Assembly: GCA_947488435.1 (NCBI GenBank)
Contig: CANKZG010000001.1
Location: 2,596,308-2,660,307, forward strand
Source: an uncultured Flavobacteriaceae bacterium
Lineage (GTDB): Bacteria; Bacteroidota; Bacteroidia; Flavobacteriales; Flavobacteriaceae
Reading direction: 5' to 3'
Length of the DNA: 64,000 bases
The stretch's first letter is position 1. Each line of letters opens with the position of its first letter. This document shows positions 3,146 to 38,342 of this stretch, piece by piece. The notes under the pieces were generated by a model that was not told the DNA's origin, searched no databases, and saw only the letters and a program-made list of their open reading frames with translations. The position numbers and the translations under genes were made by a program.

Positions 3146-3868
3146 CTAATATTTACTTACGCTTCCTGATACGGATTTATTTTTATAAACCTCAGCATCT
3201 CCGGTGTATGAAATGTCAGCACCACTGCTGGCATCTGCTGTTAATTTTTCACTAACATTTACTCTGATATCTGCTCCGCTACTAGCATCGGCATAACACG
3301 TTTTGGAGATCAGATTTCTAGCATTAATATCAGAACCACTACTGGCATCTGCATACAGTACATCTGTATTTCCGGAAACTTTAATATCTGCTCCACTACT
3401 AGTATCTGCAGAAACCTGTTCAGCCATTACTTCTGCTCTCAGGTCAGAACCACTGCTAGCATCTAAATCAATTTTAGTTGCAGTAATAACCCCTTGAGTC
3501 CAAAGATCTGCTCCACTTGATGTTTTGATTGCAGTTACTTCTGGAAGCGTTACATATACTTTTTTGGTAGCTCTACCGATGTTTTCGATAGCATGAATGC
3601 GTAACTTTCCATTTTTAATATCCGTTCCAATGAGTTCCATAATGTTCTCATCTGCTTCTACTTTTATTGCTGTTACTGCTCCTTGTGTAACATAAACATC
3701 TAGTCCTTCGGAAGCAGAAACAACAGTAAAATCCTCAGTAACTTCACGAGTTTCTTCTACTACAACTCCATTTCCTTTTTCCCCATCTCCAAAATTAATA
3801 TCGAACGCGCAGGAGGATAAAAATAGAGATACGATAATTGCGATTGTGATTCTTGCTAATGTTGTCAT
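3146..3868 (-). CDS. GIN-domain (DUF2807) lipoprotein
   Basis: Head-GIN-domain protein of the putative adhesin/DUF2807 family, expected to form a right-handed beta-helix at the cell surface or in the periplasm. I prefer the ATG at 3868 over the in-frame ATG at 3898, because it starts directly with a lipoprotein signal (MTTLARITIAIIVSLFLSSC) and is preceded by an A-rich leader. The mature part opens with GNGVVVEETREVTEDFTVVSASEGLDVYVTQG, the family hallmark, followed by six SSG(A/S)D repeats spaced about 17-22 residues apart. It is the last gene of the operon behind DUF4870, PadR and PspC genes, a set common in Bacteroidota and usually read as an envelope-stress module. The molecular function is unknown. 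Confidence 0.85.
   Translation of the reverse strand: MTTLARITIAIIVSLFLSSCAFDINFGDGEKGNGVVVEETREVTEDFTVVSASEGLDVYVTQGAVTAIKVEADENIMELIGTDIKNGKLRIHAIENIGRATKKVYVTLPEVTAIKTSSGADLWTQGVITATKIDLDASSGSDLRAEVMAEQVSADTSSGADIKVSGNTDVLYADASSGSDINARNLISKTCYADASSGADIRVNVSEKLTADASSGADISYTGDAEVYKNKSVSGSVSKY
3212..3525 (-). repeat. Coding repeats: six SSG(A/S)D beta-helix turns
   Basis: Six copies of a short motif ((D/T)(A/T)SSG(A/S)D followed by I or L) recur through the second half of the GIN-domain protein. The codons are also similar (GCTAGC or GCCAGC AGTGGT followed by GCTGAT-like), so the repetition is visible in DNA as well as protein. Each copy probably forms one turn of a parallel beta-helix. Confidence 0.75.
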
Positions 3869-3961
3869 GTTTTTCGTTTTAGATTGATCAAAAGTCATTA
3901 TATTTTGGTTGTTTTTTTAATTAATTCTACTGAATTGTATAATAGCACGACTCAGTTGTTG

Positions 3962-5689
3962 TTATTTGTTATTGGAATTGGATTGAATCTCTACACCGTC
4001 TTCATCTACTTTTAATTTTAGCGATTCATCGCCGTCACGTAAATTCACATCAATCCCTTCTTCATCAATGATAATATGAGAATTGTCATCGTCATATTCG
4101 TTTTCTTCTGGTTCTGGACATTCCTGACATTTTAACTCTCCATCGACTCCCATTTTCCATACATAATTGGATACGCTTCTGCCATAAACACCTTGATTAT
4201 TTCTTGGTGTTCTTCCAAAATGGCTTCTGGTTGTTTCATCAAATTTCACTACTGTGTTTTCAGGAATGTAAAGTGTAATTCTCACCTTTTGATCCCGAAT
4301 TTTGTTTTCAGATCCGGTCGTTAAGTAATCATTAAGAGATAACGTATTTCCGGATAGTGCATAGGCATAGCTTATCTTTTCCGCCCTTTGACTGGCTTGT
4401 CTAAAAGAATTTCCATCCGCATCTTTGCGAACCTTAACCTGAAGGGTCGAATCATTTGCTTTTTTAATATCGAACTTCACATTATCAGATAGTAATAATT
4501 TCTCTCCATTATCGGTATAGGTAATGGCTATCCCATCAATTTCTACCTCCCTATTATTGTATAAATCCGTAGTTTGCATGGTAACTGTTAAAGTGTCTAA
4601 ACTGGTTTCAGCATACAATACTTCTTGCGAAGAACTACTTCCGGTATGGGAATGTTCAACGGCTTCCTTAATTCCAAATACAATAAGAATGATCATAGAT
4701 AGTAACCAAAGTCCTAATAAGGAAAATTTGGCTATGTTTCCTATAGATTTGAGGTTAGTAACCAAAATCTTAAGTCCTAAATACAGTAAGAAGAAAAATG
4801 GTATTCCAACCGCAAAAAATGTCAATATTGAAATAACCCAGACTGGCATTCCGGAAGTATTTACCATTTCGTAAAAATCAATTCCAGGAATATGAATAAC
4901 ATCAATTATACCCACAGTAAATAAGCCAACAAATAAAGCAATTAAGGTAGCGGCACCTATTATAATGAGCAGAATACCAATAAACTTCCCTAAAATCTTA
5001 AAAAAGAAAATAATAATATCACCTAGGGTTTCAAAAAAAGACTTTGAAGTATCTTTTACCTTGTTTCCAACTTTTTCGTAATCAACATTTTTAACCCTGC
5101 TGGTAACATCGTCAAAACCTTCTTTTACTTTACGTTCAATATTGCTAATATTCACAGCTTCTCCACGCATATCCAGTTTTCTGGCCGTAGTAGAAGCTTC
5201 CGGAACTAGAATCCAAAGCAGAATATAGGCGATAAAGCCAAAGCCAGTAGATATGGCTAGTAAAACAAATATAAGTCGGATCCATAATGCATCAAATCCC
5301 AAATAGTGTTCTAGTCCTGAACATACACCACCAATGTACTTGGTTTCGATGTCTCTATATAATTTCTTAGTCCTAGGAGCGGATTTTCTTGAACGTGGTT
5401 GCGGTTCGTCCTCGAAAATATCTTCATCGATTTCATAATCTTCGGGTTGCCCCATAATCGCAATGACTTCGTCTACTTCTTTCTGAGTAATTACTTGACG
5501 GTCATTTTCCATTTTTTCATGGAAGAGTTCGGCAATCCTAGCTTCAATATCACTAAGAATCTCATCGCTTCCGGTTGTGCTTGCAAAAGAGCGTTTTACG
5601 GATTCGAGATATCGCCTTAATTTACCATACGCTTCTTCATCGATGTGAAAGAAGATATTGGCGAGATTTATATTTACTGTCTTGTTCAT
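3962..5689 (-). CDS. PspC-domain inner-membrane protein
   Basis: A 575-residue membrane protein. Residues 1-90 form a charged, helical cytoplasmic segment (MNKTVNINLANIFFHIDEEAY, DIEARIAELFHEKM, VITQKEVDEVIAIMGQPEDY) found in front of many Bacteroidota PspC proteins. A PspC domain follows at about 108-175 (KLYRDIETKYIGGVCSGLEHY, then a hydrophobic span ending ILLWILVPEA). Further membrane spans lie around residues 230-340. The C-terminal 220 residues are beta-rich and end in a strongly acidic stretch. PspC proteins sense envelope stress; here the partner is the PadR regulator encoded 8 bases upstream, so the two are surely co-transcribed. The downstream GIN lipoprotein may be an output or partner, which is inference. 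Confidence 0.9.
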   Translation of the reverse strand: MNKTVNINLANIFFHIDEEAYGKLRRYLESVKRSFASTTGSDEILSDIEARIAELFHEKMENDRQVITQKEVDEVIAIMGQPEDYEIDEDIFEDEPQPRSRKSAPRTKKLYRDIETKYIGGVCSGLEHYLGFDALWIRLIFVLLAISTGFGFIAYILLWILVPEASTTARKLDMRGEAVNISNIERKVKEGFDDVTSRVKNVDYEKVGNKVKDTSKSFFETLGDIIIFFFKILGKFIGILLIIIGAATLIALFVGLFTVGIIDVIHIPGIDFYEMVNTSGMPVWVISILTFFAVGIPFFFLLYLGLKILVTNLKSIGNIAKFSLLGLWLLSMIILIVFGIKEAVEHSHTGSSSSQEVLYAETSLDTLTVTMQTTDLYNNREVEIDGIAITYTDNGEKLLLSDNVKFDIKKANDSTLQVKVRKDADGNSFRQASQRAEKISYAYALSGNTLSLNDYLTTGSENKIRDQKVRITLYIPENTVVKFDETTRSHFGRTPRNNQGVYGRSVSNYVWKMGVDGELKCQECPEPEENEYDDDNSHIIIDEEGIDVNLRDGDESLKLKVDEDGVEIQSNSNNK

Positions 5690-5697
5690 TTTTGTTG

Positions 5698-6027
5698 CTA
5701 TTTTGTAGTGGTTACCAAATTAACTGCATTTCTTAGTTCATCCCAGGTGGTATTGAGTTCCTTTAGGAATAACTTCCCCGTTTCGGTTAACATATAATAT
5801 TTACGCGGAGGCCCAGAAGTAGATTCTTCCCAACGGTAGTTGAGTAATCCCGCATTTTTTAATCTAGTTAACAAGGGATAAATTGTCCCTTCCACGACGA
5901 GCATTTTGGCATCTTTGAGGGCGTTGAGTATTTCGGAAGCATACTTATCTTCTCCATTTAGGATCGAAAGTATGCAATACTCCAAAACCCCCTTGCGCAT
6001 TTGTGCTTTTGTGTTTTCAATATTCAT
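5698..6027 (-). CDS. PadR-family transcriptional regulator
   Basis: A 109-residue regulator of the short PadR class. The winged helix is plain: MRKGVLEYCILSILNGEDKYASEILNAL, then the recognition part VEGTIYPLLTRLKNAGLLNYRWEESTSGPPRKYYMLTETGK, which is nearly the family consensus (GTIYPLLxRLxxxGLL and GPPRKYYxLTxxG). The family represses envelope or efflux genes and is often released by phenolics, drugs or a membrane partner. It sits 8 bases upstream of the PspC gene and downstream of the DUF4870 gene, so it probably controls this operon. Candidate operators are the repeats at 6763-6884. The ligand is unknown. Confidence 0.92.
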   Translation of the reverse strand: MNIENTKAQMRKGVLEYCILSILNGEDKYASEILNALKDAKMLVVEGTIYPLLTRLKNAGLLNYRWEESTSGPPRKYYMLTETGKLFLKELNTTWDELRNAVNLVTTTK

Positions 6028-15612: not shown

Positions 15613-15753
15613 CTATATTTGATTTAATGGTGAATATGGATACAAACTTCTGAGATATTGGAAGTTTTTAAAAAGAGAAAGGATTCAATTGCCAGTTTAA
15701 GCTACTGAATTGTAAATAATGACGTCTCAATTCAAAATGATGCTCTTGTTGAT

Positions 15754-18007: not shown

Positions 18008-18348
18008 CGGTGCGATCGAGGTTTAAATACATATAATTTTAAGAAATGCTTAAACAGTAGTTTATATGAGCTTTTTTGAGATGCTATAAATTAATTCGTG
18101 TAGTTGCAAAATACCGAAATAAAATGAGATACGAATTTAAAATTAATTGCACGGCTATCGTTTTACTTTAAACGATCATTTGTAAGCGTACTTATCTGAA
18201 CTGCGACCTTGTTTGTATAGCGTTAAGCCTATAGTTCGACATTAGAAAGATGTACACAATTCATCCTTCAAAATCCACGGTTGAGTGTTTTAATTTAGAA
18301 ATGCTATGCACAATAAAAGACTTTTGTTAGATCAAAAAACGAAAGATT
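18008..18348. other. 341-base divergent intergenic region
   Basis: Spacer between the start codons of the decarboxylase and the TonB-dependent receptor. It must hold both promoters, but I cannot point to a convincing -33/-7 pair or operator. No gene-length open frame is present. Confidence 0.45.
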
Positions 18349-31709: not shown

Positions 31710-31739
31710 ACAGCTCATCATTCAAAAGCAACAGTTCGG
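31710..31739 (+). promoter_or_regulatory. Candidate LytTR operator upstream of the TPR/kinase operon
   Basis: Two 9-base direct repeats, ACAGCTCAT (31710-31718) and ACAGTTCGG (31731-31739), are separated by exactly 12 bases. The second fits the known LytTR half-site pattern ([TA][AC][CA]GTTN[AG][TG]) at every position and the first at eight of nine. It lies 67 bases upstream of the ATG at 31807, a sensible place for an activator. The response regulator at 36309 is the obvious candidate to bind here. Single half-sites occur by chance in such DNA; the spacing and the second copy at 33904 are what make it credible. Confidence 0.55.
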
Positions 31740-31806
31740 TAATTCTTTTTTAGAAATACTGCTAAAGAAATCCATTTTTGTGCATCATAATTAAAAACGA
31801 ACAGTC

Positions 31807-32430
31807 ATGAAAAATGTAATTGTATTTGGTCTTATTTTGGTAATGAAAGTTATTAATGCACAAGATCCTTATACCAAAGGAATGGAAAAGGCTTTTCAAC
31901 TTTGGGGGGAGAATAAAACAATAGAAGCAGCCAATTTATTCGAACGAATTGCCACGGCAGAACTGGATAATTGGTTACCGTATTATTATGCTGCGCAAAT
32001 AAATACTATTAATGCTTTTGGAGAGCAGGATAAGGTAAAATTGCGTCAATATTTAGATAAAGCTCAAGAATTACTTGACCTTGCCAAATCAATAACCCCA
32101 GATCACCCTGAAGTGCTTGTCCAACAGGCAATGATACATACTGCTTGGATAGCTTCAGATGGCGCCAGTTATGGACCAACACTTTCTGGAAAAGTGATTG
32201 CATTGTACCAAAAAGCAGTACAAATAGCACCAGACAATCCAAGAGTTGTTTTCTCCAAAGCGGAATGGGATATGGGATCTGCTAGATATTTCGGGCAGGA
32301 TACTGCACCATATTGTGAAGCCGTAGAACGTTCCTTGGATCTTTTTGCTAACTTTAAACCCGAAAGTGATTTTCATCCAAATTGGGGCAAAGAAAGAGCA
32401 GAACAAGTAGCAGCTAGTTGTAAGGAATAA
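31807..32430 (+). CDS. Secreted TPR-like protein, first gene of the kinase operon
   Basis: A 207-residue exported protein. The signal is MKNVIVFGLILVMKVINAQ. The mature part is helical with TPR-like repeats: AFQLWGENKTIEAANLFERIATAELDNWLPYYYAA, LRQYLDKAQELLDLAKSITPDHPEVLVQQA and VIALYQKAVQIAPDNPRVVFSKA. It has two cysteines near the C terminus (PYCEAVE and AASCKE) that could form a disulfide. It ends three bases before the histidine kinase start, so the two are certainly co-transcribed. A periplasmic sensor or partner for the kinase is a reasonable inference. Such TPR-like proteins occur in Bacteroidota with no known function. Confidence 0.82.
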   Translation: MKNVIVFGLILVMKVINAQDPYTKGMEKAFQLWGENKTIEAANLFERIATAELDNWLPYYYAAQINTINAFGEQDKVKLRQYLDKAQELLDLAKSITPDHPEVLVQQAMIHTAWIASDGASYGPTLSGKVIALYQKAVQIAPDNPRVVFSKAEWDMGSARYFGQDTAPYCEAVERSLDLFANFKPESDFHPNWGKERAEQVAASCKE

Positions 32431-32433
32431 AGT

Positions 32434-33771
32434 ATGAATCGATTTCTAAAAGAACTTTTAAAATCAATATTGGTAGGAACTGTCCTGTACCTAGTGTTCA
32501 TGGCAGTTTACTATTTTTCGGGTGTCTACGATTCGGGTTTTGATTTTGCTGAGCTCATTATTGATTTTTACGAACATATGGTGTTTGCCATAATTCTATA
32601 TATGGCTAATGCGTATTGGTTTTTATATCTCATTCGTAAATACGGCTATAATGTTTATGAGTTAAAGCGGTTTGTTTTTGCTTTATCTGGAAACCTTATA
32701 TTATCGCTTGTAGGTGTTTTCATCGCTCGATGCATTGTCATTGTATTTTTACAAGGACAGCACTTTGAACTATTTCTAATGAATGAGAGAATTACGTACT
32801 ACAGATCATCAATGTTAATAGCATTAGGGGTTGCCTTAATATTCTATGCACTCTGGTACTATAAATATCGTCAAGAAAGCAGGGTTAAAGAACAAAAAAT
32901 CATTGCGGGTACCGCATCCGCCCGATTCGATGCATTAAAAAATCAATTAGACCCACATTTCCTATTTAATAGCTTAAATGTACTGACAAGTTTAATAGAA
33001 GAAGATCAATTTCAGGCACAAAAATTTACGACCTCCTTATCAAAGGTATATCGCTATGTATTAGAACAAAAGAATAAGGATTTGGTAACTGTAGATGAAG
33101 AACTAAATTTTGCTCGAACGTATGTGCGTTTACTTAAAATGAGATTTGAGGATAGTATTATCTTTGAAATACCAGATCAATGTAGTATTCCTGATGCTAA
33201 AATAGTGCCACTTTCATTGCAGTTACTATTGGAGAATGCAGTGAAACACAACATTGTTACCTCTTCCAAACCTTTGCGAATAAAAGTCTACGAAGAAAAG
33301 GGAATGTTGGTGGTTGAAAATAACCTGCAAGAAAAACAAGTAATTAAAAAGAGTAGTGGGGTAGGGCTACAAAATATCCAACAACGCTATACTATTTTGT
33401 CAGATCGTCGGGTATACATAAATAAAACAGCCTCTAGTTTTAGCGTTGCCTTACCAATGCTTACCCAGCAAATATCATGGCAAGAAACCCAAGAGGTGCA
33501 CATTGAGGAGAAAAGATACCTTAAAGCTAAAGAAAGGGTAGAAATTTTAAAGGGGTTTTATAGCAACCTAATTGCCTATTGTATTGTTATTCCTTTTTTG
33601 TGGTGGCTTAATTTTAGAACTACAGATTTTTTATGGGCTTTCTTTCCTACTATAGGATGGGGTTTTGGTGTTATAGCACATGGACTTGAAGCATCTGGAC
33701 GTAATCCGCTTTGGGGAAGAAGGTGGGAAGAGCGAAAAATACAAGAATTAATGGAAAAGGACGATTTCTAA
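32434..33771 (+). CDS. LytS-type histidine kinase with C-terminal 2TM domain
   Basis: A 445-residue membrane kinase. Residues 1-145 hold about four membrane spans (12-30, 47-68, 78-108 and 124-144). The His_kinase domain follows, with the phosphorylated H175 in NQLDPHFLFNSLN, N268 in the N box (LLLENAVKHN) and the G box GVGLQN at 309-314. After the ATPase domain, about residues 359-445 form a complete 2TM domain (RYLKAKERVEILKGFYSNL, two hydrophobic spans, then RRWEERKIQELMEKDDF). This tail is very close to the first separate 2TM protein at 33989, so kinase and array are evolutionarily linked. The LytTR regulator at 36309 is the expected phosphoacceptor. The stimulus is unknown. Confidence 0.92.
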   Translation: MNRFLKELLKSILVGTVLYLVFMAVYYFSGVYDSGFDFAELIIDFYEHMVFAIILYMANAYWFLYLIRKYGYNVYELKRFVFALSGNLILSLVGVFIARCIVIVFLQGQHFELFLMNERITYYRSSMLIALGVALIFYALWYYKYRQESRVKEQKIIAGTASARFDALKNQLDPHFLFNSLNVLTSLIEEDQFQAQKFTTSLSKVYRYVLEQKNKDLVTVDEELNFARTYVRLLKMRFEDSIIFEIPDQCSIPDAKIVPLSLQLLLENAVKHNIVTSSKPLRIKVYEEKGMLVVENNLQEKQVIKKSSGVGLQNIQQRYTILSDRRVYINKTASSFSVALPMLTQQISWQETQEVHIEEKRYLKAKERVEILKGFYSNLIAYCIVIPFLWWLNFRTTDFLWAFFPTIGWGFGVIAHGLEASGRNPLWGRRWEERKIQELMEKDDF

Positions 33772-33903
33772 GATATTACTTCTCTCGTATATATCACAGC
33801 TATATTGTTTAGTCTTATCTATAGAAAACAAGAACGCTTCAATCCTTAAATTCCACCTAAAAAAAGAATAATATCAACTCATCCTTAAAAAACAACAACT
33901 CGG

Positions 33904-33933
33904 AAGGCTAGTTTTTTTTCGAGTACAGTTTGT
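33904..33933 (+). promoter_or_regulatory. Candidate LytTR operator upstream of the 2TM array
   Basis: AAGGCTAGT (33904-33912) and ACAGTTTGT (33925-33933) are direct repeats separated by 12 bases. The second fits the LytTR half-site pattern at every position; the first matches seven of nine. The downstream half-site resembles that of the 31710 site (ACAGTT followed by C or T, then G), and the same spacing and orientation occur in both. An ATATTTG box follows at 33938, so the site may act just upstream of the array promoter. Confidence 0.5.
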
Positions 33934-33988
33934 AACGATATTTGAAGTGTAATTAAAATTAACACCAACAAGTTAAAATATAAATAAC

Positions 33989-34267
33989 ATGGAAAATCTC
34001 AACGAATACAAGTATACCAAGGCAAAAGAAAAAGTAGAAGCAATAAAAGGGTTCTATGGGAACTTATTAAGTTATTGTATAGTAATTCCTTTTTTAGTGT
34101 ATTTGAATTACCATACCACTAGTTTCCCTTGGGCAATATTTCCCGCTTTAGGATGGGGATTTGGTCTTATTGCACATTGGATGAATGCCTATGGCTACAA
34201 CCCTATTTTAGGTAAAGATTGGGAAGAAAGAAAGATTAAAGAATTCATGGATCGAAGCGAATTTTAA
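33989..34267 (+). CDS. 2TM-domain protein A
   Basis: A 92-residue protein consisting of a single 2TM domain. Residues 9-24 are a charged helix (TKAKEKVEAIKGFYGN), followed by two hydrophobic spans (about 25-42 and 48-68) and a cytoplasmic tail GKDWEERKIKEFMDRSEF. It is the closest relative of the 2TM domain at the end of the histidine kinase: both have FYxNL, YCIVIPFL, LN-x(2)-TT, WAxFP, GWGFG and IAH. It is the first gene of the array and follows a 217-base leader that holds the candidate LytTR operator. The function of 2TM domains is unknown; helix-helix contact with the kinase is inference. Confidence 0.88.
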   Translation: MENLNEYKYTKAKEKVEAIKGFYGNLLSYCIVIPFLVYLNYHTTSFPWAIFPALGWGFGLIAHWMNAYGYNPILGKDWEERKIKEFMDRSEF

Positions 34268-34326
34268 TAAATATTTTACCTTTAATACGAAGTGGGCGAA
34301 GAACATCAATAGAAATCAAGATTATC

Positions 34327-34629
34327 ATGGAAACAAATATGAACCGAGAAACCAAATATTTAAGAGCCAAAGATCGTGTAGATCAGCTTAAAAAGTTTTA
34401 TGGAAACTTAACCTCTTATGTTTTTTTTATAATTGGGCTAGGAGCTCTTAATTATTGGATAAATGAATGGAGGTATATGTGGTTTTTATGGGCTGCGTTC
34501 GGTTGGGGTATTGGTATATTTTTCCACGCGATGAAAACGTTTAATTTCTTTCCATTCTTGGGAAAAGACTGGGAAGAACGTAAGATGAAAGAATTTATGA
34601 ATGAAGAAGACAATAAAAAATGGAACTAA
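34327..34629 (+). CDS. 2TM-domain protein B
   Basis: A 100-residue 2TM protein. It begins METNMNRETKYLRAKDRVDQLKKFYGNLTSYVFFIIGLG, so it belongs with the N-type (FYGNL) forms. The second span reads WFLWAAFGWGIGIFFHAMKTF, and the tail LGKDWEERKMKEFMNEEDNKKWN is strongly conserved. Its last three codons (Lys-Trp-Asn) overlap the next start: the ATG of protein C is embedded in AAATGG. An ATG at 34339 is a possible later start, but a 59-base leader from protein A makes 34327 more natural. Confidence 0.86.
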   Translation: METNMNRETKYLRAKDRVDQLKKFYGNLTSYVFFIIGLGALNYWINEWRYMWFLWAAFGWGIGIFFHAMKTFNFFPFLGKDWEERKMKEFMNEEDNKKWN

Positions 34630-34961
34630 TTAAGAAAACCGAAATAGACAATAAATTGGATAAAGCAAAAAACAGAGTAGCCACTATAAAACAATTTCAC
34701 AAACATCTTTTAGTATATATTGGCGTAAATGGCTTTGTAACTTTCTCTAAAGTTGTAAGAAACCTAGATAACGGAGAAACATTTATGGAAGCTTTCTGGG
34801 ATTTTGGCACCCTTGTTATTTGGTTGTTCTGGGGTATCGGATTAATGGTACATGGGCTTAAGGTCTTTGTTTATGAAGGATCCTTCGCAAAAAGATGGGA
34901 GCAACAGCAACTTCTTAGATATATGCGAGAAGATGAAGAAACTTTGAGAAAATACAAATAA
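34620..34961 (+). CDS. 2TM-domain protein C
   Basis: A 113-residue 2TM protein, H-type (IKQFHKHLLVYIGVNGFVTF). The loop between spans is longer than in A and B (VVRNLDNGETFMEAFWDFGTL) and the second span is LVIWLFWGIGLMVHGLKVF. The tail EGSFAKRWEQQQLLRYMREDEETLRKYK departs from the WEERKIKEF pattern (WEQQQLLRY), so it is the most divergent member apart from protein G. It starts inside the last codons of B (10-base overlap) and ends 7 bases before D. Confidence 0.85.
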   Translation: MELIKKTEIDNKLDKAKNRVATIKQFHKHLLVYIGVNGFVTFSKVVRNLDNGETFMEAFWDFGTLVIWLFWGIGLMVHGLKVFVYEGSFAKRWEQQQLLRYMREDEETLRKYK

Positions 34962-34968
34962 ACCAACC

Positions 34969-35319
34969 ATGAAAACAAAAAATAAAAATTTATCGAAATA
35001 CGATAGGGCTCGAAAAAAAATAGAAGATATTAAAGGTTTTTATAACCATTTAATGGTTTACATTGTGGTTAATATCATGCTTCTAGTTTTTAGAAAAAAC
35101 ATTAGTTTTTTTATTGTCAATCCGGAAGTACTTGAAGATACTTCTGTATTGAACTGGATCGATTGGAATGTTTATGGAACACCCATTTTATGGGGAATAG
35201 GTCTTGCAATTCATGGATTTTGTGTGTTTGGTAATGTTCCATTTTTAGGAAAAGGCTGGGAAGAACGAAAGATAAAAGAATTTATGCAAGATGAAAACAA
35301 CACTAAAAAATGGCACTGA
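34969..35319 (+). CDS. 2TM-domain protein D
   Basis: A 116-residue 2TM protein, H-type (IKGFYNHLMVYIVVNIMLLVF). A polar inter-span loop (ISFFIVNPEVLEDTSVLNWIDWNVYG) precedes a second span with the LWGIGLAIHGFCVFG core. The tail FLGKGWEERKIKEFMQDENNTKKWH matches B, F and the kinase tail. Its final Lys-Trp-His codons contain the ATG of protein E, again a 10-base overlap. Translation from D to E is therefore probably coupled. Confidence 0.86.
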   Translation: MKTKNKNLSKYDRARKKIEDIKGFYNHLMVYIVVNIMLLVFRKNISFFIVNPEVLEDTSVLNWIDWNVYGTPILWGIGLAIHGFCVFGNVPFLGKGWEERKIKEFMQDENNTKKWH

Positions 35320-35627
35320 GTAGAAACAACGACCTTATAGAAAATAGATACACAAGGGCTAAAGAGCATGTTGCCCAAATCAAAGGGTTTTACATCAATG
35401 TGATTTGCGCGGTTAGCATACTACCTGCTTTGGCAGTCCTGAACTATTGGATAGATCAATGGGAGAATCCATGGTTTTTGTTTTCGGTAGGAGGATGGTC
35501 GGTAGGAATTTTGATGCATGGTTTAGCTACTTTTCAACCGAATATTATCTTTGGAAAGGAATGGGAAAATAATAAAATTCAAGAGTTTATCGCAGAAGAG
35601 GATAAAAAACGAAAACAATGGCAATGA
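35310..35627 (+). CDS. 2TM-domain protein E
   Basis: A 105-residue 2TM protein, N-type (IKGFYINVICAVSILPALAVLNYWIDQWENPW), closest to B in the first half. The second span is WFLFSVGGWSVGILMHGLATF and the tail is FGKEWENNKIQEFIAEEDKKRKQWQ, where NN replaces the ER of the usual WEERK. The ending Lys-Gln-Trp-Gln overlaps the ATG of protein F by ten bases. The start is inside the last codons of D. Confidence 0.86.
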   Translation: MALSRNNDLIENRYTRAKEHVAQIKGFYINVICAVSILPALAVLNYWIDQWENPWFLFSVGGWSVGILMHGLATFQPNIIFGKEWENNKIQEFIAEEDKKRKQWQ

Positions 35628-35941
35628 TTATGGAAAATATGGATAGTAAGAAGCATGCTAGGGCTAAGAAAAGAGTGGATGAGTTAAAAGGGTTCTATAT
35701 TCATCTTACGGTGTACATTGCGGTTAATGCATTCATTCTTATAAACATTTTCTTGAGAAACGATAACTTTTGGCAATGGGGACATTTCTTCAGCCCTATC
35801 TTTTGGGGTATAGGATTGGCATTTCATGCATCTAAAGTATTTAGCTTTGACCTTATTTTTGGAAAAGGTTGGGAAGAGCGTAAAATAAAAGAATACATGG
35901 AAAAAGACCGAAAAGAAAGTGATAAGTTTACAAAGCGATAA
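35618..35941 (+). CDS. 2TM-domain protein F
   Basis: A 107-residue 2TM protein, H-type (LKGFYIHLTVYIAVNAFILINIFL). The inter-span loop is short (RNDNFWQWGHFF) and the second span is SPIFWGIGLAFHASKVF. The tail FGKGWEERKIKEYMEKDRKESDKFTKR is longer and more basic than in the others. The stop TAA (35939-35941) is followed one base later by the ATG of protein G. The ATG used overlaps the E gene by ten bases; a second ATG at 35630 (MENMDS) is a less likely start. Confidence 0.86.
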   Translation: MAMIMENMDSKKHARAKKRVDELKGFYIHLTVYIAVNAFILINIFLRNDNFWQWGHFFSPIFWGIGLAFHASKVFSFDLIFGKGWEERKIKEYMEKDRKESDKFTKR

Positions 35942-35942
35942 A

Positions 35943-36290
35943 ATGGAGGCATATCATACAAAACTGAAAAGAGCTCAAAAAAGAGTTTCTGGAATTAAAG
36001 AATTCTATGCGCACCTTAAAGCGTATATTGTAGTTAATGTGGTAATTCAATTTTTAAAACCAGAGGCAAGAGCCTTTTTTGATCATAAAGAATTAAAGAA
36101 TGGCCACAGTTTTTTAGAATGGTTTGATTGGAATTTATTAATTATACCTATGCTGTGGGGAATTGCTTTAGTGGTGCATGCTATTATTGCCTTCCAGTAT
36201 AAACCAGGATTCTTAAAAAATTGGGAACAAAAACAATATCAAAAGTTTTTAGAAGCAGATCGCGAAGGGGAAAATACTATAAAATCGTAA
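35943..36290 (+). CDS. 2TM-domain protein G
   Basis: A 115-residue 2TM protein, H-type (IKEFYAHLKAYIVVNVVIQFL). I start it at 35943, one base after the F stop, because an in-frame start at 35919 lies inside F and adds unrelated residues. The loop is long (KPEARAFFDHKELKNGHSFLEWFDWNLL) and the second span is LIIPMLWGIALVVHAIIAF. The tail FLKNWEQKQYQKFLEADREGENTIKS lacks WEERK, as in C. It is the last array member, 18 bases before the response regulator. Confidence 0.85.
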   Translation: MEAYHTKLKRAQKRVSGIKEFYAHLKAYIVVNVVIQFLKPEARAFFDHKELKNGHSFLEWFDWNLLIIPMLWGIALVVHAIIAFQYKPGFLKNWEQKQYQKFLEADREGENTIKS

Positions 36291-36308
36291 TAAAATAACT
36301 CAGAATCC

Positions 36309-37064
36309 ATGCATGTAATTATTATCGAAGATGAGAAACCAGCTGCACGTCGTTTAAATCGATTACTTTCAGAATTGGATGTTGAGATTTCTACCATGTT
36401 ACATTCGGTAGAAGAAGCAATAGATTGGTTTCAAAAAAACCCACATCCAGATTTAATTTTTTTAGATATTCAATTATCGGACGGACTCTCTTTTGAGATT
36501 TTTGATGTTATAGAGGTTAAAAGCGCCATAATTTTCACCACCGCATATGATGAATATGCTTTACAGGCATTCAAGTTAAACAGCATTGATTATTTGTTAA
36601 AACCTATTGATGACGAAGAACTTGAAAGTGCGGTAAAAAAGTATCAAAATTTTAAACCTGAAAGTCAAAAAATGTCCTTAGATTTTGAAGACATAAAGAA
36701 GCTTTTAGTTAACCCTTTAGAGCGAGAATTTAAAAAAAGATTTACCGCTAGAGTGGGACAGCATATTAAAATTATTAATGCCGATGAAGTGGAATGTTTT
36801 TATAGTGAAAACAAAGGTACGTACGCTGCAACTTCGGATGGAAGAAATTATTTGTTAGATACAACGCTAGAGAACCTAGAGCCAGAACTGGAACCCAAAC
36901 AATTCTTTCGCGTTAGTCGCAAGTTTTATATTAATATAAATCATATCAAAGATATCGTATCGTATACCAATTCCCGCTTGCAAATCAAGCTAAATAAATA
37001 TCAGGAGCAAGAAATTATTGTAAGTAGAGAGCGCGTCAAAGATTTTAAGTTATGGTTGGAGTAA
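36309..37064 (+). CDS. LytTR-family response regulator
   Basis: A 251-residue response regulator. The receiver domain (1-120) has the acidic pocket E7/D8, the phosphorylated D53 in FLDIQLSDG, the conserved Thr in FTTAYDEYA and Lys in LLKPID. The LytTR DNA-binding domain (about 145-250) begins FTARVGQHIKIINADEVECFYSENKGTY and contains FFRVSRKFYININHIKDI. Such regulators pair with LytS-type kinases and bind tandem 9-base repeats with 12-13-base spacing; candidate sites are at 31710 and 33904. It ends the array transcript. The kinase at 32434 is the only candidate partner in the window. Confidence 0.93.
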   Translation: MHVIIIEDEKPAARRLNRLLSELDVEISTMLHSVEEAIDWFQKNPHPDLIFLDIQLSDGLSFEIFDVIEVKSAIIFTTAYDEYALQAFKLNSIDYLLKPIDDEELESAVKKYQNFKPESQKMSLDFEDIKKLLVNPLEREFKKRFTARVGQHIKIINADEVECFYSENKGTYAATSDGRNYLLDTTLENLEPELEPKQFFRVSRKFYININHIKDIVSYTNSRLQIKLNKYQEQEIIVSRERVKDFKLWLE

Positions 37065-37154: not shown

Positions 37155-38342
37155 CTATTTTTCAACCCGATTTTCATCAAAAGCTGAAGGTAGCAATTTA
37201 GGAATTAATTTTATAAAAATTGGTAATAAAACTGCCCCGCCCGGAAGCATAAAAATTGCCAAAGATGGAATACTTTTAAAGACATCGAGTAATTGATTCT
37301 GTACTTTTTTACGCTCTTCAGGACTCAAATCTTTAACCGTAGATTTTGATAAAAGCGTTACCAATTCTCCACTTTCTGAAAGCTCCTTTAGCAGCCGCTT
37401 GCTATTTCTCAAAATCAATTTATTTACAATTTTCGAAGTGCTATCATAAAATTGGAGCGCTAAATTTTGGTTCTTTAAATGTGGTATTAACTTCACATGT
37501 TCGTCAAAAAAATAAGCCACATCATTTAGCGATTGAGATACCTTGTCGATAGGTATTTTTAAGTCCTTTGCTAACCCATAAATAAAAACAGATTCTTTAT
37601 AATCTAACGAGTGGTCTTCCCACACTGCCAAACAAGCCAAATCTAGAAAATAGGTATTTTCTTCTGGACAGCAATGTACCAATAATTTTTCGCGATAACT
37701 TCCATCAAAATCACGTTCACCATCTTCAATAAAGGTTAACGAAGAGGCAAATAATTGAGCCAAACGCTCATCTTTTTTTTGTTTTTCTTTAGAATTTAAA
37801 GCATGATATGTACTATTAATGGCAATGTATTCTAAATTTTGAGCATGTTTTCGAATATGCTGTTCTCCATCAAGATATTTTCGGAAGGTCAATACATCTA
37901 CAAAAAGTAGGGAATTTGTGATAATACTATTGAAGGTTTTACTAAATACATTATCCTCGAGATAGATACGTGAACTGATGAGTTTCTCCAATTGGGAAGA
38001 AGTTTTTTTTCCCAATAGTATTTTGTTTAAGTAGGATATTTGTCCCACATCCAATATTTTATAAAAATCAAATATGATGGCTAAAAAAGCATCGAAACCT
38101 GTATTTGGGTGTTTCAGATCATAAGTAAAGTATAATGCAACTAACAAATTAATTTTAGCTTTCTCATCTTCAGATAAGGCATGTGGCGCTTCAATAAACC
38201 CAGAGAATCCTACATTAATTCCATAAATGAACCCAGTCTTCTTTATATGATCGTACAATTCAGAAAATTGGGTATACTTACAAGGATGATCTTTTACTAA
38301 AGAACCAAATTTATCAATCCAACCTGGAGCAGAGGGGTTCAT
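37155..38342 (-). CDS. LETM1-related biofilm-associated protein
   Basis: A 395-residue protein whose last 60 residues match the LETM1 core (LLDVFKSIPSLAIFMLPGGAVLLPIFIKLIPKLLPSAFDENRVEK), including the PGGA-x-LLP and LLPSAF signatures. The rest is helical, with an N-terminal segment MNPSAPGWIDKFGSLVKDH. The name comes from flavobacterial annotation that links this family to biofilm formation; mitochondrial LETM1 acts in cation exchange. A hydrophobic stretch near 365-380 could sit in the membrane. It is convergent with the 2TM/LytTR unit and separated from it by 90 bases. No close connection of function is shown. Confidence 0.85.
   Translation of the reverse strand: MNPSAPGWIDKFGSLVKDHPCKYTQFSELYDHIKKTGFIYGINVGFSGFIEAPHALSEDEKAKINLLVALYFTYDLKHPNTGFDAFLAIIFDFYKILDVGQISYLNKILLGKKTSSQLEKLISSRIYLEDNVFSKTFNSIITNSLLFVDVLTFRKYLDGEQHIRKHAQNLEYIAINSTYHALNSKEKQKKDERLAQLFASSLTFIEDGERDFDGSYREKLLVHCCPEENTYFLDLACLAVWEDHSLDYKESVFIYGLAKDLKIPIDKVSQSLNDVAYFFDEHVKLIPHLKNQNLALQFYDSTSKIVNKLILRNSKRLLKELSESGELVTLLSKSTVKDLSPEERKKVQNQLLDVFKSIPSLAIFMLPGGAVLLPIFIKLIPKLLPSAFDENRVEK

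Follow-up and report, generated by a model that had tools for sequence, protein, structure and literature searches.

The closest described relatives of the locus reported here are two-component systems of the LytS/LytTR kind (AlgR/AgrA/LytR family), with which it has in common a His_kinase domain (PF06580), a REC-LytTR regulator, the phospho-residues and an operator of paired 9-mers, the canonical LytTR site being 9-bp direct repeats with a spacing of 10-13 bp (PMC11347149, in excerpt). Judged from sequence, the locus has the H, N and G boxes of such kinases, a regulator that joins a phospho-Asp REC domain to LytTR, and a predicted operator with 10-13 bp spacing. Unlike usual LytS/LytTR systems, its kinase bears a 2TM domain at the C-terminus, further copies of that domain are encoded as free genes between kinase and regulator, and its operator stands at a fixed distance from a Bacteroidota-type -7 box. 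LiaFSR/Psp systems are alike in outline, with membrane accessory proteins encoded together with the two-component pair (PMC11237479, in excerpt), but none of the ten module proteins matched PspA, PspC, LiaF or LiaI. A PspC/LiaI-LiaF-TM gene lies at 3962-5689, some 26 kb upstream of the module. The MHYT-LytTR sensor CoxC, likened here by its description, likewise combines a membrane domain with conserved histidines, LytTR control and a direct-repeat operator; it differs in having seven helices in one protein and in being a repressor whose operator overlaps the -35 box (PMC11347149, in excerpt). No description of 2TM arrays with a LytS-LytTR pair was found in the parts of the literature available, and the excerpts of PMC3597751 and PMC5395568 gave no information on a 2TM-LytS/LytTR module; the "2TM domain" of PMC9425974 is, from its excerpt, a different domain, DUF4191. 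The LytTR/kinase pair FJOH_RS09515/09520 of F. johnsoniae, mutated in each of five coevolved lines (PMC10197871, in excerpt), is probably another pair, because its locus tags as given there are consecutive and leave no space for 2TM genes between them.

The window, meaning the whole stretch of 64,000 nucleotides that was analysed, holds the module at 31807-37064, where coordinates and a single strand held for all module genes:

31807-32430, plus strand: TPR-like protein, TPR below cutoff, signal-peptide-like start judged by eye
32434-33771, plus strand: LytS-type histidine kinase with N-terminal membrane helices, His_kinase PF06580 and a C-terminal 2TM tail
33523-33756, plus strand: 2TM tail of the kinase, residues 364-441 (PF13239, E 4.5e-26)
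33989-34267, plus strand: free 2TM protein f1, PF13239, a free copy of the kinase tail (59% identity)
34327-34629, plus strand: free 2TM protein f2, PF13239
34620-34961, plus strand: free 2TM protein f3, PF13239, His in the TM1 motif
34969-35319, plus strand: free 2TM protein f4, PF13239, His, long loop
35310-35627, plus strand: free 2TM protein f5, PF13239
35618-35941, plus strand: free 2TM protein f6, PF13239, His
35943-36290, plus strand: free 2TM protein f7, PF13239, His, long loop (ATG 35943 being a more likely start than GTG 35919)
36309-37064, plus strand: REC-LytTR response regulator, Pfam Response_reg and LytTR, D53

A sequence-only reading had described these genes as one tight same-strand run headed by a TPR protein. 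Its tail-bearing LytS kinase, seven free 2TM proteins and LytTR regulator were borne out by Pfam and the coordinates, each free protein matching PF13239 (E 8.9e-31 to 2.4e-18) and all eight 2TM domains lying far above the curated cutoff with nearly the whole model covered. The first gene is present, but its Pfam TPR matches scored 20.4 and 19.8 bits, short of their respective cutoffs of 23.5 and 25, which makes "TPR" a weakly founded name for it. The common strand also stood, whereas tight spacing broke down at the 217-bp gap between kinase and f1; an operator and a -7 box lie within this gap, so that the kinase operon and the free 2TM array are probably two transcription units. The phospho-acceptor residues are kept (kinase H175 and N-box N268, regulator D53), with H175, N268 and G309/G311 invariant across the 17 kinases compared. 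A recent, near-identical array was rejected, as identities within the window are 20-46% with the f1-tail pair, at 59%, the sole exception. The genome has nine PF13239 matches, eight of them within the module; the ninth is a lone gene adjoining a DHFR gene. Going by name, 2TM is not known to have an assigned function, as the sequence-only reading also stated, and neither are DUF2141 and DUF2306, which appear below. A relationship of 2TM to a solved fold was likewise rejected, there being no sequence match and only Foldseek matches at E 4.1 or worse, and the matches of the kinase model were ordinary kinase cores. Both models are modest and single-chain and carry no information on contacts (kinase pLDDT 70.6, pTM 0.38; 2TM pLDDT 82.6, pTM 0.57).

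That 2TM arrays recur beside LytS/LytTR pairs was the expectation on which the sequence-only reading most depended, and it survived: tail-kinase and free 2TM genes occur together in 28 of 36 same-family genomes, and a 440-460 aa frame with PF13239 was found in 24 of the 26 same-family genomes with PF13239, among the matches listed. We annotated 46 non-redundant modules (L052 was excluded as a duplicate of L034, both from G018; L035, L036 and L043 are truncated where their contigs stop), and the counts take in related sequences as they stand. The regulator is in place in 42 of these, three of the four exceptions ending at contig ends, and a TPR homologue was detected in 33/46 modules and not in the other 13. 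Free 2TM genes number 1-9 per module where the contig permits, with a single one in 12 of the 45 modules that have any. In one genome, G027, an array gene has internal stops. The kinase carries 2TM in 46/46 modules, doubled at L066, but modules were defined via the tail-kinase, so "always fused" holds partly by construction.

The predicted operator is a pair of 9-mers with 12 bp between them, a direct repeat of 21-bp period, and it precedes both putative transcription units:

31710-31739, plus strand: LytTR-type operator 1, two 9-mers with 21-bp period, upstream of the TPR-kinase operon
31773-31780, plus strand: -7 box nAnnTTTG at a fixed distance from operator 1
33874-33903, plus strand: LytTR-type operator 2, upstream of the free 2TM array
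33937-33944, plus strand: -7 box nAnnTTTG at a fixed distance from operator 2

Both operators have zero mismatches to the LytTR-like repeat in the window sequence, and they scored 40.7 and 31.5 bits with a matrix built from 49 sites of relatives, the window sites being outside the training set; under a composite promoter model operator 2 reached 47.6 bits. Sites above 15 bits numbered 5 in the 1.66 Mb scanned (38% of the genome), against 0.2 for column-permuted matrices, and the composite model gave 7 sites above 20 bits with none above 8 in the mirror control. The -7 box lies outside the operator matrix, yet its offset is fixed: of 109 promoters, 96 have it beginning 63-64 nt past the start of the operator (63 in 93; 64 in 3, two of them window sites read one base off), compared with a mean of 0.64 and a maximum of 4 in shuffled controls; it is absent from the other 13 and from two of the three DUF2306 promoters. 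This set took module sites above 18 bits and receptor or DUF2141 sites above 15 bits, counting identical stretches once, and because of these rules the receptor promoters in it number 15 and the DUF2141 promoters 11, fewer than the 22 and 15 reported below, the rest being classed as "other" under module loci. Kinase-array gaps longer than 60 bp contain an operator in 22/23 cases, a count that is largely in-sample because gap sites trained the matrix, and L040 and L041 have extra operators between the first and second free 2TM genes. A tandem-repeat search at the L168 operator came back empty. The proposal that the module regulates itself, already made in the sequence-only reading, is strongly supported at the sequence level by an operator and -7 box before both the TPR-kinase operon and the array, although the operator could serve other LytTR regulators of the genome too.

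Sites of the same type elsewhere in the window indicate a wider predicted regulon, which is an addition to the earlier reading:

18256-18285, plus strand: predicted regulon operator upstream of the TonB-dependent receptor gene, 33.1 bits
18349-20511, plus strand: TonB-dependent receptor-like gene, CarboxypepD_reg and Plug domains, predicted regulon member
15684-15713, minus strand: predicted regulon operator upstream of the DUF2141 gene, 23.6 bits
15193-15612, minus strand: DUF2141 protein, predicted regulon member
3930-3959, minus strand: candidate operator upstream of the DUF2807 gene, 25.7 bits
3146-3898, minus strand: DUF2807 (head GIN) protein adjoining PspC and PadR genes, candidate regulon member from its site in this genome

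Orthologues of the receptor in other genomes, which were not in training, have the operator upstream in 22/23 cases, and DUF2141 homologues have it within 400 bp upstream in 15/23. The receptor could not be assigned to a known type, its NCBIfam matches being far below cutoff, and it had no solved-structure relative at E 1e-5. DUF2141 has been found co-located with crtG in Sphingomonadales (PMC5989583, in excerpt); a carotenoid role for it was considered and set aside. DUF2306 and DUF2807 are further regulon candidates. In G008 the module operon itself includes a DUF2306 gene, and in G000, G017 and G019 an operator-type site precedes DUF2306. In this genome the module-type promoter precedes the receptor, DUF2141, DUF2306 and DUF2807 genes, and from this common promoter the module would seem to form the centre of a previously undescribed envelope regulon. 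A shared, precisely placed promoter appears to join 2TM, DUF2141, DUF2306 and the receptor in many Flavobacteriaceae, and as they would belong to one regulon, their functions are testable through a single regulator deletion.

Our favoured reading, to which we give about an even chance, is that a self-regulated LytS/LytTR circuit controls this envelope regulon and that hetero-assembly of 2TM domains feeds back on the kinase tail. The module's REC-LytTR protein would bind the operator and, when phosphorylated, activate the promoters that carry it; with the operator at roughly -75 to -46, a short way upstream of the -33 region, the layout fits an activator. The 2TM domains are predicted to be cytoplasm-in hairpins that may combine into mixed complexes within the inner membrane. 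The kinase would enter these via its tail, so that free 2TM protein, whose quantity and type the kinase itself would control, might feed back on kinase output. Being a free version of the tail, f1 might compete with it for binding partners, and the histidine-lacking tail would usually pair with a histidine-bearing free protein; f1 is 60-68% identical to the tails of 12 other loci. The fused tail, the double tail of L066 and the histidine contrast between tail and free domains are consistent with a partnership of kinase and free 2TM proteins, as the sequence-only reading proposed, though not proof of it. The TM1 histidine occurs in 2 of 47 tail domains versus 79 of 124 free domains, and apart from L049, L050, L051 and L066, which have no histidine-type free 2TM, every module having free genes (41/45) carries at least one. 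The circuit would act by changing an outer-membrane receptor and the inner-membrane 2TM assemblies. The module offers a clear example of a kinase bearing a domain that its own circuit appears to make in free form.

The free proteins might instead be pure outputs of the regulon, membrane effectors, with the tail just providing additional anchorage or help in dimerisation and no signal passing between them, a rather unlikely reading that nonetheless draws on the array's own operator and promoter and on 2TM genes in operons that have an HTH_34 regulator and no kinase (TBDR-TPR-4TM-HTH_34-2TM at L106, TPR-4TM-HTH_34-2TM at L096, and 4TM-HTH_34 with DUF2306-2TM farther down at L089), as well as on a free 2TM gene of G120 that adjoins a tail-less LytS (L090). 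However, the kinase already has N-terminal membrane helices besides the tail, the tail is doubled in one genome (L066), and among the 2TM domains of the window conservation is highest in tail and f1, with mean best identities of 63-64% against 33-56% for f2-f7. The earlier suggestion that the array diversifies the signals read by the kinase, its members being accessory input subunits, now seems improbable. The fusion, the constant neighbourhood, free-member loops that differ in length (6-36 residues by a hydropathy rule) and the range of copy number would suit it, but related genes in other genera exist for most members, with subfamilies recurring across genera rather than a fast-diversifying set, the array is a likely target expressed downstream of the regulator, 2TM operons exist without a kinase, and 12 modules have just a single free gene. 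Least probable is that copy number reflects neutral tandem duplication and loss with a single free 2TM gene being enough, as those 12 modules, f1 as a copy of the tail and the G027 gene with internal stops might suggest, against the recurrence of distinct subfamilies in different genera and the extra operators at L040 and L041.

The circuit with 2TM feedback has a bolder form, which we regard as a long shot: the histidine-lacking tail and a histidine-bearing free protein might be halves of a split membrane sensor with a composite ligand site at their interface, candidate ligands being a metal, haem, a quinone or another membrane ligand, and the kinase would govern both the production of the halves that complete it and an outer-membrane receptor that might import the ligand. 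If true, receptor halves would be made by the very circuit they report to.

The one-strand gene set that a sequence-only reading had singled out was confirmed and is not a chance arrangement. Its members are:

31807-32430, + strand, TPR-like protein with a signal-peptide-like start (Pfam TPR scores are below cutoff, so TPR is a weak label)
32434-33771, + strand, LytS-type kinase of 445 residues, whose tail (residues 364-441) is a 2TM domain
33989-36290, + strand, seven free 2TM proteins (Pfam PF13239), f1 to f7 in gene order
36309-37064, + strand, REC-LytTR regulator (Pfam domains)

A profile search found nine PF13239 matches in the genome, eight of them inside this module. Convergent with the regulator is a LETM1_RBD-domain gene (window 37155-38342), homologues of which occur in 26 of 50 loci, 25 of these convergent and downstream of the regulator.

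The conserved two-component module is real. PF13239 was present in 37 of the 60 relatives searched, and tail-bearing kinases were read in 30 genomes, comprising 28 of 36 from the same family and two from the same order (G040 and G053); of the 26 same-family genomes carrying PF13239 in a draw of 247 from across the phylum, 24 had, among the matches listed, a frame of 440-460 aa, the size of a tail kinase. Loci from the 30 genomes, 16 named-contig loci (Maribacter, Arenibacter, Croceitalea, uncultured Flavobacteriaceae and other MAGs) and the window, less the duplicate L052, made up 46 modules. The proposed association of 2TM genes with a LytS/LytTR pair recurs across them, the regulator following the kinase and 2TM genes in 42; three others (L035, L036, L043) stop at a contig end, and L049 has no regulator in the stretch read. 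A TPR homologue lies upstream of the kinase in 33 of 46, and at two loci (L049, L053) the TPR part is continued in frame by a DUF2141 domain. Free 2TM genes number one, two or three (12 modules each), four or five (two each) or six (three modules); seven are found in the window alone, nine in L041 and zero in L043 up to its contig end. With copy numbers of 1-9, the window's seven are therefore high, not a record. Individual modules vary further: one kinase tail has two 2TM domains (L066 4185-5729), and genes within modules include an ICMT-like gene (L050 and L051, the latter domain-scanned, the former alike), an amidohydrolase (L065, domain-scanned; L073 alike) and a DUF2306 gene (L067). An array gene in G027 (L063 4889-5149) has two stops in its match and is apparently decaying.

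A LytTR-like motif of two 9-mers, repeating every 21 bp, is matched exactly at 31710-31739 and 33874-33903; an excerpt of PMC11347149 gives the canonical LytTR site as two 9-mers separated by 10-13 bp. A matrix of 45 columns, trained on 49 sites from relatives and on neither window site, scored these operators at 40.7 and 31.5 bits. Across 1.664 Mb (about 38%) of the window's own genome, one stretch of which shares 3.7 kb with the window, it found 5 sites over 15 bits vs 0.2 with column-permuted matrices, and 14 vs 6.2 over 9 bits. Among kinase-to-first-free-gene gaps longer than 60 bp, 22 of 23 have an operator (largely in-sample). In two large arrays, extra operator-like sites with a -7 box separate the first free gene from the second (L040 9798, L041 9741).

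Of 109 promoters aligned on the operator start, 93 have an nAnnTTTG element, outside the matrix columns, that begins at offset 63, and three have it at 64 (shuffle control at these offsets: mean 0.64, maximum 4, 200 shuffles); the strict TAnnTTTG occurs there in only 8 of 91.

Promoters with the -7 box, by position
Upstream of TPR or kinase: 29/31
Kinase-array gap: 16/21
Receptor: 15/15
DUF2141: 8/11
DUF2306: 1/3
Other sites in module loci: 24/25
Three further own-genome sites: 3/3

TAnnTTTG is described in an excerpt of PMC9723704 as the -7 box of the flavobacterial main sigma factor, at -12 to -5. The operator would then lie at about -75 to -46, beside and not over the -33 region, a position that would suit an activator.

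A composite promoter model (80 columns, trained on 89 promoters of relatives) was run over the same 1.664 Mb and scored seven sites above 20 bits and an eighth at 11.5; its mirror image gave none over 8. Five of the seven are in the window, before the TPR-kinase operon, the 2TM array, a TonB-dependent receptor-like gene (18349), a DUF2141 gene (15612) and a DUF2807 gene (3898); the sixth precedes a DUF2306 gene and then a PagL-domain gene (L185), and the seventh a group of reading frames of 37-39 aa each (L168). Next to the DUF2807 gene are genes for a PspC/LiaI-LiaF-TM/Toast-rack protein and for a PadR protein; with its candidate operator, this stretch (window 3146-6027) may tie the regulon to a Psp-like envelope locus. 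The 37-39 aa frames are of two recurring types (L168 13432-14098, that is G000:C1:1433432-1434098; L265; L266), and three of these frames are preceded by a regulon-like promoter. At two places in G018 close homologues stand in tandem, and the 5-kb stretches there held no operator over 8 bits.

Membership recurs in relatives. Receptor orthologues (E 1e-40 or better) were found in 23 of 32 module-bearing genomes, and in 22 of these an operator lies no more than 400 bp upstream; receptor promoters were kept out of training, and none of ten control stretches gave a site over 15 bits. In the exception, L210, the homologue is 36% identical; two others, at 34% identity, do have the operator. Eighteen genomes have 23 DUF2141 homologues between them, 15 with an operator; three of the others (L222, L224, L226) are fused or partial with the operator further upstream, and the remaining five match weakly (E 1.8e-14 to 5.2e-9). 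DUF2306 homologues occur in three of the 32 genomes, inside the module operon in G008 and with an operator in G017 and G019. The gene order in G123 and G159, TBDR-DUF2141-TPR-kinase-2TM-regulator, looks like an assembled form of genes that in the window are scattered across some 22 kb (15.2-37.1 kb). We regard this envelope regulon as a larger find than the 2TM array association.

In a tree of 171 2TM domains from the 46 modules, in which several deep splits are weak, f1 grouped with kinase tails, the window's included, in a set of 25 members (support 0.956), f2 (0.789) and f5 (0.837) with free genes in first or second place in other modules, f4 with domains from five other loci (0.839), and f6 with a histidine-type group (0.701) shared by f3; f7 was poorly placed (0.117). 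The named loci held no close counterpart of f5 or f7 (mean best identity 39% and 33%). The TM1 histidine of FYx[H/N] is present in 2 of 47 tail domains vs 79 of 124 free ones. Of the 45 modules that have free genes, 41 encode at least one histidine-type free protein, as do 10 of the 12 with a single free gene; the TM2 histidine (GLxxH) is carried by 35 of the 47 tail domains and by 93 of the 124 free ones. Structure models predict three helices, the first long and the last C-terminal, and an N-in, C-in hairpin fits both the basic ends and the fusion of a 2TM domain to the end of a cytoplasmic kinase domain.

Module conservation, operators, promoter geometry and regulon membership are established at the level of sequence, and the regulon is very probably self-regulated. 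The module's own LytTR regulator would bind the operators and, when phosphorylated, activate the regulon promoters; 2TM domains would hetero-assemble, and feedback onto the kinase would run through its tail. Contact between tail and free 2TM proteins is somewhat favoured, and for the mechanism as a whole the chances seem even, kinase-free 2TM operons and the four modules without a histidine-type free partner being counted against it. The sequence-only reading was right about the association; the array's role as partner or regulator of the kinase, diversifying its input, stands only in part. Literature searches on the 2TM domain, PF13239, LytTR and DUF2141, mostly at the level of listings and outside subscription journals, found no published description of this 2TM/LytS-LytTR system.

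Other Bacteroidota have 2TM genes with like companions and a different kind of regulator, in the orders TBDR-TPR-4TM-HTH_34-2TM (L106), TPR-4TM-HTH_34-2TM (L096), 4TM-HTH-2TM (L094) and 4TM-HTH_34 with DUF2306-2TM further down (L089); in G120 (L090) a free 2TM gene, a tail-less LytS and a LytTR regulator are side by side. These five are the linked ones among the 16 class-level loci listed, the link being absent in eleven; ten further loci had it in one (L260, without DUF2306) and lacked it in nine. Hence in some lineages 2TM goes with receptor and TPR genes without a kinase, and many 2TM genes have neither kinase nor receptor/TPR companions. A lone 2TM gene lies next to DHFR in the window's own genome (L077 4143-5023), and in G028 the two are fused in a single reading frame adjoining thymidylate synthase (L082 3614-5372).
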